This document shows, in pieces, positions 6,125 to 45,817 of a stretch of DNA of 64,000 nt (position 1 is the first letter of the stretch; every line of letters starts with the position of its first letter). The notes under the pieces are model-generated. The model had not been told where the DNA came from. It did not search any database and saw only the letters and a list, made by a program, of their open reading frames with translations. The translations under genes were made by a program, and so were the position numbers. Source of the DNA: Paenibacillus donghaensis (GTDB lineage: Bacteria; Bacillota; Bacilli; Paenibacillales; Paenibacillaceae); assembly GCF_002192415.1 (NCBI RefSeq), contig NZ_CP021780.1:4340001-4404000 (forward strand), written 5' to 3'.

Positions 6125-6712
6125 TTACACCCTCTCAGCCTGCTCATCAAATTCAGGCTCATAGAAATAGGATTCGAGCTGAAGCTTCACACTGCTCCGG
6201 GCACGGAACAATAGCGATTTCACGGAGCTTACACTCTGATCCAAAATTACGGCAATTTCCTGATAATCCATCTGGTCATACTCGCGGAGAATCAGCGCCG
6301 AACGTTGCTTCTCGGGAAGGCTGTTGATCGCCTCACGGACCAGATTCATCCGTTCCTTGCGCAGCGCAGCCTGTTCAGGGGCAACATCCAGCGGAGCAAC
6401 CGGGGTATAGCCGCTCTCTTCGAGCGACACATTGCCAGCACGGTTCTTGCGCAGTTCGCTCAGCACGGTATTGCGAGCTATGGTGTACAGCCAAGTAGAG
6501 AAAGAAGCATCCACTTCCCGGAAGGAATGAAGGCTGCGGAATGCCTTATAGAAGGTTTCCGAGCATAGGTCTTCAGCGATCAGCTCCATGTGAGAGTTCT
6601 TCAGCATGTGATAAACAAATGCCAGAATCTTTCTTTGGTACCTGCGCATTAACTCCGAGTATAACTCTGTATCGCCTTGCTTAATTAGTTGGATCAACTG
6701 GGAATCCGTCAT
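6125..6712 (-). CDS. ECF-type RNA polymerase sigma factor
   Basis: The 195-residue protein has region 2 (ILAFVYHMLKNSHMELIAEDLCSETFYKAFRSLHSF) in outline, the WLYTIARN element, a variable linker, and region 4 with SLPEKQRSALILREYDQM and a helix-turn-helix (YQEIAVILDQS..VKSLLFRAR). These are the marks of ECF sigma factors of the SigW/SigX/SigV group. The start ATG follows GAGGAGGG. The next gene encodes a zinc-binding membrane anti-sigma factor. A candidate ECF promoter sits 60-85 bases upstream, suggesting autoregulation. Confidence 0.93.
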   Translation of the reverse strand: MTDSQLIQLIKQGDTELYSELMRRYQRKILAFVYHMLKNSHMELIAEDLCSETFYKAFRSLHSFREVDASFSTWLYTIARNTVLSELRKNRAGNVSLEESGYTPVAPLDVAPEQAALRKERMNLVREAINSLPEKQRSALILREYDQMDYQEIAVILDQSVSSVKSLLFRARSSVKLQLESYFYEPEFDEQAERV

Positions 6713-7148: not shown

Positions 7149-7177
7149 TTGACAGAATGAAAACGTATACATATAAT
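7149..7177 (+). promoter_or_regulatory. Consensus SigA promoter of a small RNA gene
   Basis: Exact TTGACA (7149-7154), 17-base spacer, exact TATAAT (7172-7177). It faces away from the sigma factor gene and towards a terminator only about 90 bases on. Confidence 0.85.
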
Positions 7178-7183
7178 AAAAGT

Positions 7184-7275
7184 ACAGTATGGTTTCTCTC
7201 CACTCCTATCCAAACACTGTACGGTTCCAATTTATTGTGAACTGTAGCCGCTTACTTTGTAAGCGGTCTTTTTTT
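7184..7275 (+). ncRNA. Candidate small regulatory RNA, about 92 nucleotides
   Basis: A perfect SigA promoter is followed within about 92 bases by a strong terminator, with no reading frame preceded by a ribosome binding site between them. The transcript would start with a GTACAGT/ACTGTAC stem (7182-7188 with 7216-7222) enclosing a pyrimidine-rich loop CTCTCCACTCCTATCC. That loop could pair with Shine-Dalgarno regions of target messages. A GTTC/GAAC mini-hairpin and the terminator hairpin follow. The 5' end is inferred from promoter spacing. It could be a trans-acting riboregulator; no known family was recognised. Confidence 0.65.
7247..7275 (+). terminator. Rho-independent terminator of the small RNA
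   Basis: GCCGCTTAC-TTT-GTAAGCGGT followed by C and seven T residues on the plus strand. Confidence 0.85.
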
Positions 7276-7501: not shown

Positions 7502-7541
7502 GCAAAACAGGACCCGGGCAGCCGCCCGGGTCCTGTTTTGC
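7502..7541. terminator. Strong hairpin ending the aromatic supraoperon
   Basis: An 18-base perfect stem (GCAAAACAGGACCCGGGC and its complement) with a 4-base loop, immediately after the tyrA stop codon. The T-rich arms and TTTT on the plus side allow it to act in both directions. Confidence 0.85.
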
Positions 7542-7543
7542 TT

Positions 7544-8638
7544 TTATACATATACCGTGTAATCATTATGCTGCAGCAGCAGCTTGGCCTGCTCCATATC
7601 ATGCTCCTGACGGAAGGACAGCCGCATAATGCCAGGCACATCCTCACGACTCTCGATGATCTGCACGTTGCTGAGGTTGATGCCCTGATCGCCCAACTGG
7701 GTCGTAATGCGCCCGATGATACCCGGATGATCCGGCACATCGATATGAAGGTCGAACAGCGGCATGATCATGCCCTTGCGCCGCTCCGGCAGCTGGCTGC
7801 GGAAGTCATTCGCATCGCCGAATGCTTGCTGGATGCCCTTGCCATCCTCCTGCTCCAGCATGTCGATGAAGGATGCTACCTCTTCATTCCAATCCTTCAG
7901 CAGACGCAGCATCACGGAACGGTTACCCAGCAGAATATCGCGCCAGATCACCGGGTCACTGGAAGCAATCCGCGTAATGTCGCGGAAGCCCCCGGCAGCC
8001 AGCGTGCTGTACAATGAATCGGTATCATCATAAGCAGAGATTTGGTTGACCAAGGCCACCGCGATAATATGCGGCAGATGGCTGATTGCCCCAACAATCT
8101 CGTCATGACGCTCAGGGTCCAGGCGCACAATCTGCGCCCGGGTATGTAGAAGCAGAGTCTCCAGCGCATGGTAGGCTTCCTCCGGCACTCCTGGCGGAGG
8201 GGTCAGCACGTAATACGCATTCTCGAACAGCAGCGAGGACGCGGCCTCCACGCCTGAGCGCTCAGAGCCGGCCATCGGATGACCGCCGATAAAATGTACG
8301 CCCGGCAGCTCAAGCGAAACCGCACAAGCAGCGATGCTGGCTTTGGTGCTGCCAACATCCGTGATGATGCAGCCGGGCTTCAGCGGCAGCTGGCTGAGCT
8401 GCTGCAGATAACCCTCCAGCATGCCGACAGGCACGCACAAAAAGATATAATCGGCATCCAGTGCCGCTTCCTCCACAGAAAGCGTAGCACTGTCGACCAC
8501 GCCTCTGCTGACATATTTCATTGCGGATTCAGGACGGTGGGCATGGCCAACCACGGTTAACCCTTCCTTGCCCTTGAAGCACAGGGCCAAAGAGCCTCCG
8601 ATCAGGCCAACACCAAAGATCGCTATTTTTGTCGTCAT
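7544..8638 (-). CDS. tyrA: Prephenate dehydrogenase with C-terminal ACT domain
   Basis: The 364-residue enzyme oxidatively decarboxylates prephenate to 4-hydroxyphenylpyruvate in tyrosine synthesis. A Rossmann motif IFGVGLIGGSLAL occupies residues 7-19, and the conserved active-site region GGHPMAGSERSG is at about 127-138. The last 70 residues (LHIDVPDHPGIIGRI and following) form an ACT domain, the usual feedback sensor in Firmicute TyrA. It is the last gene of the supraoperon, 47 bases downstream of hisC, and is followed by a strong hairpin. The aroE gene that follows tyrA in B. subtilis is absent. Confidence 0.96.
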   Translation of the reverse strand: MTTKIAIFGVGLIGGSLALCFKGKEGLTVVGHAHRPESAMKYVSRGVVDSATLSVEEAALDADYIFLCVPVGMLEGYLQQLSQLPLKPGCIITDVGSTKASIAACAVSLELPGVHFIGGHPMAGSERSGVEAASSLLFENAYYVLTPPPGVPEEAYHALETLLLHTRAQIVRLDPERHDEIVGAISHLPHIIAVALVNQISAYDDTDSLYSTLAAGGFRDITRIASSDPVIWRDILLGNRSVMLRLLKDWNEEVASFIDMLEQEDGKGIQQAFGDANDFRSQLPERRKGMIMPLFDLHIDVPDHPGIIGRITTQLGDQGINLSNVQIIESREDVPGIMRLSFRQEHDMEQAKLLLQHNDYTVYV

Positions 8639-45542: not shown

Positions 45543-45563
45543 ATGAAAAATTAATCAAGCAAA

Positions 45564-45817
45564 ACCGATGAAGGAACAAAGAACCTGCAAGCCTTCAGAG
45601 AGCCGGTGGTTGGTGCAAACCGGTGGCCTTTCAGCCTTCTTTAGCGCTCCCGAGATATTGTATCGAACTCATGAGTAGGTACAATCGGATCACTCCGTTA
45701 CCAGTGTGGCCTTTGCAGGCCAATGAGGCTGTTATTGAAGTAGCAGCGAATTAGGGTGGTACCACGACAACTTTCGTCCCTTACTACGGCAGTAGTATGG
45801 GGTCGGAAGTTTTTTTG
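45564..45817 (+). promoter_or_regulatory. T-box leader of serA
   Basis: The leader has a stem I closed by CCGAT/ATCGG (45565 and 45685), the distal AGAGAGCCGGTGGTTGG segment, a specifier region GAACTCA (45665-45671), the T-box sequence AGGGTGGTACCACG (45753-45766), and a terminator hairpin with seven T (45769-45817). Such leaders let an uncharged tRNA stabilise an antiterminator. By the usual GAA-codon rule the specifier is CUC (leucine); shifted by one it would be UCA (serine). The T-box TGGT matches a tRNA with A73, as tRNA-Leu has. Confidence 0.88.
45769..45817 (+). terminator. T-box terminator
   Basis: AACTTTCGTCCC pairs with GGGGTCGGAAGTT, enclosing a TACTAC/GTAGTA hairpin, followed by seven T. 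About 200 bases separate it from serA. Confidence 0.8.

Follow-up and report, generated by a model that had tools for sequence, protein, structure and literature searches.

RsaI (RsaOG) of Staphylococcus aureus is a stand-alone small RNA (sRNA) that is repressed by CcpA, is derepressed at glucose starvation and represses translation by pairing with Shine–Dalgarno (SD) sequences (PMC9266662, excerpt); its conservation is given as the genus Staphylococcus (PMC8216469, excerpt). RosA (S345) of Bacillus subtilis is also a stand-alone sRNA repressed by CcpA (PMC8216469, excerpt). CsfG is read from the strand opposite to the ylbH element, and its CU-rich loops are conserved (PMC3574147, excerpt); Rfam lists RF00516, the 'ylbH leader', as cis-regulatory, and the excerpt of PMC3574147 reports a transcript from the reverse strand. 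Most instances of the trpB motif lie in 5' UTRs, either of transporter genes or of trpB (PMC11109978, excerpt). For Paenibacillus riograndensis, an RNA-seq study reports 77 intergenic novel transcripts and 27 small RNAs, 3 named (PMC5670726, excerpt). Here we describe an unannotated, deeply conserved sRNA family that is new to Rfam.

The window, that is, the whole stretch of DNA analysed, comprises 64,000 nt of Paenibacillus donghaensis (GCF_002192415.1, NZ_CP021780.1 positions 4,340,001–4,404,000, forward strand). At 7149–7275 of its plus strand lie a sigma-A promoter, a non-coding stretch of about 92 nt and an intrinsic terminator (Table 1). The promoter hexamers are separated by a 17-nt spacer and match the consensus at 12/12 positions, the sole such match among six promoter-like sites between 5000 and 10000; because 4.5 ± 1.8 sites are expected by chance at the looser 9-of-12 criterion of the scan, the consensus match alone is weak evidence. 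RNA spanning 7184–7275 had a minimum free energy (MFE) of −26.4 kcal/mol, against −12.75 ± 2.58 in 200 shuffles (z −5.3), and the terminator stem consists of 9 bp closed by a 3-nt loop. An earlier note on this DNA had proposed a TTGACA-17-TATAAT consensus promoter with a strong rho-independent terminator about 90 bases on, no ribosome-bound frame between them, and a discrete, unannotated sRNA gene placed between an ECF sigma factor operon and tyrA. The promoter (7149–7177), the terminator stem with its T tract and both neighbours were found as described, there was no SD-led frame, and comparison of genomes agreed with the proposal of a discrete sRNA gene in its promoter, terminator, exposed loop and lack of an Rfam family.

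Table 1. Features of the sRNA unit and its neighbours, in window coordinates.
Feature	Position	Strand	Basis or remark
ECF-type sigma factor gene (sigma-70 region 2/4 protein), neighbour	6125-6712	-	Pfam
-35 hexamer TTGACA	7149-7154	+	part of 12/12 promoter match
cre-like site TGAAAACGTATACA in promoter spacer	7158-7171	+	13/14 to palindromic cre consensus; matches WTGNAANCGNWNNCW
-10 hexamer TATAAT	7172-7177	+	12/12 promoter match
Predicted sRNA, ~92 nt	7184-7275	+	folding z -5.3; conservation; start placed ~7 nt past -10 by inference
5' hairpin (outer stem window-specific, plus UGG/CCA)	7184-7220	+	MFE
24-nt core TATGGTTTCTCTCCACTCCTATCC, nearly invariant	7188-7211	+	exact in 93/96 loci retrieved without requiring an exact block
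Second hairpin, variable among relatives, missing in some	7221-7245	+	MFE; relatives compared by eye
Second, weaker cre-like string TGTAGCCGCTTACT	7243-7256	+	12/14; runs into terminator stem
Intrinsic terminator (stem 7247-7267, then T tract)	7247-7275	+	terminator hairpin at equivalent place in 215/217 distinct loci
tyrA (prephenate dehydrogenase), convergent neighbour, synteny anchor	7544-8638	-	Pfam

That no known sRNA family would be recognised, as had also been stated, was borne out by Rfam 15, which at the gathering score gave no family at 7149–7275 and nothing for 11 chosen loci of the sRNA family. The weak matches at E up to 10 all lay below their cut-offs, and membership of an Rfam family was rejected. 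The best of them was the trpB motif (RF04312; 26.1 bits against a cut-off of 59), which like the sRNA has a 5' hairpin followed by a terminator, but its alignment left the loop unaligned and skipped 28 model positions; it too was set aside, as the unit does not occupy a 5'-UTR position and the next genes face the other way. For CsfG (RF00516) the match was on the opposite strand, and its 17.2 bits fell short of the cut-off of 50, which does not support membership. RsaI/RsaOG, which presumably has an Rfam family of its own, was not among the matches up to E 10. Elsewhere in the window, a T-box leader (RF00230) was identified at 45559–45784 (+) with 109.3 bits. In the literature searched, the supplementary tables of PMC5670726 lying outside it, no description of the sRNA family was found; the excerpts of PMC8632094 and PMC11109978 hold nothing on the element, and the sRNA may be among the transcripts of PMC5670726 that are listed in those tables.

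BLAST with the unit returned one copy in each of 60/60 relatives (the window's own genome included), representing 17 genera. A 71-base query consisting of the promoter plus the 5' end matched 244 of 246 genomes of the order (45 of 46 genera) and 159 of 398 genomes of the class, where some matches span promoter letters alone (G529, G542) and are probably due to chance. Profile R1, which was built from 60 sequences, partly from genomes later searched with it, and was run with stricter filters, found 147 of 398 class genomes at E 0.01 (63 of 145 genera); the two class samples are equal in size and their listed rows carry the same handles. In 299 phylum genomes the same profile matched only 5 from the window's own family, with no match in the 6 further class members listed; the other 288 genomes of that sample (14 of them shown) lie outside the class as far as listed. 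Presence in 60/60 relatives, in 244/246 genomes of the order and in about 150 of 398 of the class means that the element is not due to chance.

A further set of 98 stretches was retrieved by an exact 26-base pattern, which forces block identity in them; counts given here over 143, 187 or 217 loci mix these stretches with others. Carriers in this set include Shouchella, Halalkalibacter, Alkalihalophilus pseudofirmus OF4, Halalkalibacterium halodurans and Fictibacillus, together with Aneurinibacillus, Melghirimyces, Marinococcus, a Brevibacillus MAG and two Paenibacillus. From 23 class genomes without a strong match, 20 aroA neighbourhoods were obtained, and a block search over both strands of each whole locus found a variant core with two mismatches in 6 and none in 14. 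Two of these 14 come from genomes (G409, G428) in which 23 nt of the block are matched exactly at some other place, so that a block missing beside aroA does not mean a genome without it. An exact 21-mer search of IMG/VR viral contigs did not find the family. In some Brevibacillus-like genomes (a family label that rests on a named MAG, L191, whose stretch is identical to that of L100) a second copy of the block was seen at another locus (L263 in G492 and L264 in G460; more weakly L265 and L266), with a different promoter, no obvious cre and then a terminator. In one family of the class (L219 and L220, from G303 and G399) the block is not next to tyrA/aroA, its promoter is arranged differently and the RNA is shorter.

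At 179 of 204 distinct loci, tyrA, aroA or hisC lies within two genes on one side of the sRNA; some of the other 25 loci are short stretches or reach a contig end. Pfam confirmed representatives of tyrA, aroA and the sigma factor, while the hisC products are class I/II aminotransferases by Pfam and the name hisC is a reading only. On the other side the neighbour differs between loci (TPR protein, amidohydrolase-like, sigma factor and others). The tyrA/aroA synteny is the ancestral location of the sRNA, a point that the earlier note, otherwise supported in its reading of an sRNA, had overlooked together with the cre sites described below. Just past the 3' end of tyrA in the window, at about 7508–7541, there is a strong GC-rich palindrome with T on either strand, by eye probably the tyrA terminator. 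The synteny at 179 of 204 loci might suggest a cis-acting element of the tyrA/aroA operon or of the sigma operon, but the neighbouring tyrA, aroA or hisC always presents its 3' end to the sRNA, on either strand (114 co-directional, 65 convergent), the gene on the other side is not constant and the element has its own terminator, and we regard a cis function as highly improbable.

The most constant part of the unit is its core (Table 1), a pyrimidine-rich block near the 5' end that is nearly invariant over 20–24 nt and that varies in more distant relatives mostly at its ends (for example TCTGG...TATCA). A −10 element with at most one mismatch lies 5–16 nt ahead of it in 204 of 217 distinct loci. 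On its 3' side the small hairpin and the terminator vary freely in letters, and the terminator itself is kept in 215 of 217. In the window the core presents a pyrimidine-rich apical loop of 17 nt, UUUCUCUCCACUCCUAU (7193–7209), for which the earlier note had drawn a 7-bp stem and proposed pairing with SD sequences; the loop was recovered, but in place of a clean 7-bp stem the MFE structure has a 5-bp stem (7184–7188/7216–7220) and a 3-bp stem (7190–7192/7210–7212). The outer arm is absent from most relatives: in most Bacillaceae-type members the loop is closed by (N)UAUGG/CCAUA(N), whereas the window has UGG/CCA and a separate outer arm. The G–C pair closing the loop was present in the MFE structure of 103 of 143 distinct loci. 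Among relatives, 84.7% of cells in the 5' stem pair, against 19–50% when the alignment is slid, but only 1 of 6 pairs has a two-sided change and the covariation score was equalled by 173 of 500 shuffles. Of the two tests that had been set for relatives, a conserved loop was thus clearly seen, whereas covariance was weak even though the stem pairs; the support for the sRNA is the invariance of its loop sequence, not stem covariation.

The core contains an ATG (in TATGG), replaced by GTG, CTG or TTG in several variants, which could be taken for the start of a small or leader peptide gene. However, only 6 of 217 distinct loci have an SD-like string in the 16 nt ahead of the core, the stop positions range from 6 codons to beyond 40, and substitutions fall at would-be wobble positions in 4 cases against 33 elsewhere. 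A peptide gene was rejected on these counts, and we give it next to no weight. Taken together, the element at 7149–7275 is almost certainly a functional non-coding gene.

A cre at the promoter, as would be looked for in a CcpA-controlled sRNA, was found in the promoter spacer of the window when sequences were scored against a palindromic cre consensus, which we take to be the CcpA operator consensus. With the threshold for a strong site set at 13/14, the second string at 7243–7256 falls below it. The string WTGNAANCGNWNNCW was counted over 187 loci: 88 have it in the promoter (shuffle mean 0.05) and 32 in the 3' part (0.35). At 13/14, a cre was present in the promoter at 92 of the 187 loci, in the 3' part at 78 and in either at 155, compared with 0.0, 0.3 and 0.3 in shuffles; within the window's order the promoter carried one in 75 of 76 loci (shuffles 0.3). 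Outside that order the cre lies mostly inside the terminator hairpin: in the named set of 98 stretches the 3' part had a cre in 68 of 91, and 63 of those 68 overlapped the last hairpin by at least 10 letters. As shuffles do not preserve palindromes or hairpins, other terminators of the same loci (L093–L212) were used as a control, which applies only outside the window's order; a cre at 13/14 was present in 69 of 112 sRNA terminators and in 3 of 588 other terminator-like sites. TGWAAACGKATACA, the operator variant of the window's order, recurs in exact form in 11 genomes, at 14 places besides the sRNA gene (1 for the reversed control), and 7 of these 14 lie, by reading of the sequence, in or just ahead of sugar-uptake genes. 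Catabolite control is not universal in the family, because 26 of 187 loci lack a cre even at 11/14, but that CcpA controls the sRNA gene is very probable.

The cre sites also point, as far as sequence can, to protein binding at the DNA of the sRNA gene, and the block itself might then be conserved as DNA, as an operator of the initially transcribed region with the RNA as a by-product. A near reverse complement of CTCTCCACTCC (within two mismatches) was found in the promoter spacer of 3 of 187 loci (shuffle mean 0.2), as a two-site operator might show; these are L095, L096 and L106, where the string between −35 and −10, a near reverse complement of the core, reads GGAGTGGAGAG. Against such an operator, the terminator is preserved at nearly every locus despite its differing letters, the distance by which the block follows the predicted start is nearly constant, and in Brevibacillus-like genomes the second copy has retained the block with another promoter. 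We therefore consider conservation as DNA very unlikely.

A family of trans-acting sRNAs of the class Bacilli under CcpA control is the reading we develop here. In the presence of a preferred sugar, CcpA bound to the cre between −35 and −10 would block RNA polymerase; on exhaustion of the sugar, repression would be lifted and the sRNA would accumulate. Its loop UUUCUCUCCACUCCUAU could then pair with purine-rich SD or translation-start regions (for example AGGAGUGG or GGAGAGA) and so repress translation of several mRNAs. From the overlap of the cre with the promoter, and by analogy with RsaI and RosA, we infer repression in sugar and release on starvation, bearing in mind that CcpA can also activate. 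The C/U-rich character of the loop likewise suggests control of translation at SD regions: pairing with SD sequences is plausible but unproven, and action on mRNA start regions is, in our judgement, probable. The sRNA probably helps the bacteria to re-tune gene expression when sugar runs out, and the whole chain, from CcpA control to loop binding at SD regions once the preferred sugar is gone, is one we favour with moderate confidence. The sRNA gene and its cre have the support of the sequence, from which we infer expression, direction of control and targets.

Three complement scans (in 30, 12 and 24 genomes) yielded no conserved target of the loop. The complement of the 17-nt loop with up to two mismatches gave 38 non-self matches in 30 genomes, all of which were read, compared with 28 for the reversed pattern; the short seed AGGAGTGGAG gave 43 in 12 genomes (42 read) against 40 for the control, and the short seed GGAGAGAAACC gave 50 in 24 genomes (all read) against 29. 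No gene recurred across families in these scans, and a glycosyltransferase-like gene came up twice, in two species of the genus (L421, L431). Sites were also seen in single genomes, with gene names taken from reading of the translations: 16 nt upstream of an acyl-CoA-dehydrogenase-like gene (L397), two stretches of 13 nt, one covering the SD of a biotin-carboxylase-like gene (L301) and the other spanning the start of a TagO-like gene (L344), and, in the window's own genome, a 15/17 match at an iron-siderophore-binding-like lipoprotein gene (L403). These sites are suggestive at the level of sequence and we claim none of them as a target.

The lack of a multi-gene target set, and a near-invariance of the loop that suggests a single invariant partner, would suit a CcpA-controlled sponge or decoy, in which the loop would bind not mRNA start regions but a purine-rich partner sRNA or an RNA-binding protein, in the way that RosA takes up RoxS through its G-rich regions. 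CcpA represses both RosA and RsaI, and each of them interacts with further sRNAs (PMC8216469 and PMC9266662, excerpts). However, no conserved RNA complementary to the 17 nt was found in 30 genomes, a search that a shorter contact would escape, and RosA and RsaI use G-rich regions (PMC8216469, excerpt), whereas the C/U-rich loop is of the regulator type. A sponge is accordingly a possibility we hold to be unlikely, and a regulator acting at translation starts is preferred.

If the proposal is true, this is a class-wide regulatory RNA family, conserved more deeply than has been reported for RsaI or RosA; in Paenibacillus-like, Brevibacillus, Aneurinibacillus, Fictibacillus and alkaliphilic Bacillus-type bacteria it would extend carbon catabolite control by a post-transcriptional arm. 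Precise, testable predictions follow from the cre in the terminator and from a loop that is nearly invariant. The comparison with CsfG concerns the loop. CsfG, said in the title of a 2011 report by Marchais (cited in PMC3574147) to be sporulation-specific, has like the sRNA a CU-rich, highly conserved unpaired stretch, and by eye the stretch GGUUUCUC of CsfG/RF00516 is present in the sRNA. The CsfG of the window's own genome reads CCGGTTTCTCCTCTCCC, and GGTTTCTC and a CTCTCC motif are common to both RNAs; this partial match would offer a way into the targets of that orphan sRNA. CsfG nevertheless lies at a separate locus (C1:2533553–2533646; L113 2001–2094; 59 bits) and presumably calls for a forespore sigma-F/G promoter, whereas the sRNA has none and instead a consensus sigma-A promoter with cre, its −10 being kept at most loci. 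More speculatively, and in our view improbably, the family might be an ancient catabolite-response sRNA of Bacilli, placed next to the aromatic amino acid operon, with CcpA acting at promoter and terminator operators (by looping or as a road-block) and a nearly frozen loop serving as a general anti-SD device partly common to CsfG, so that sugar loss and sporulation would feed overlapping target sets. RsaI resembles the proposed sRNA in being stand-alone, in its repression by CcpA and in pairing with SD sequences (PMC9266662, excerpt), but it has two G-rich regions (PMC8216469, excerpt) and the sRNA has none, as three consecutive G occur nowhere in 7184–7275. RosA acts as a G-rich sponge on RoxS and FsrA, and its CcpA site spans −1 to +12; the sRNA differs in its pyrimidine-rich loop and in a cre placed either in the promoter, between −35 and −10, or in the terminator. 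The sRNA may thus work in the manner of CsfG or RsaI, without belonging to either family.
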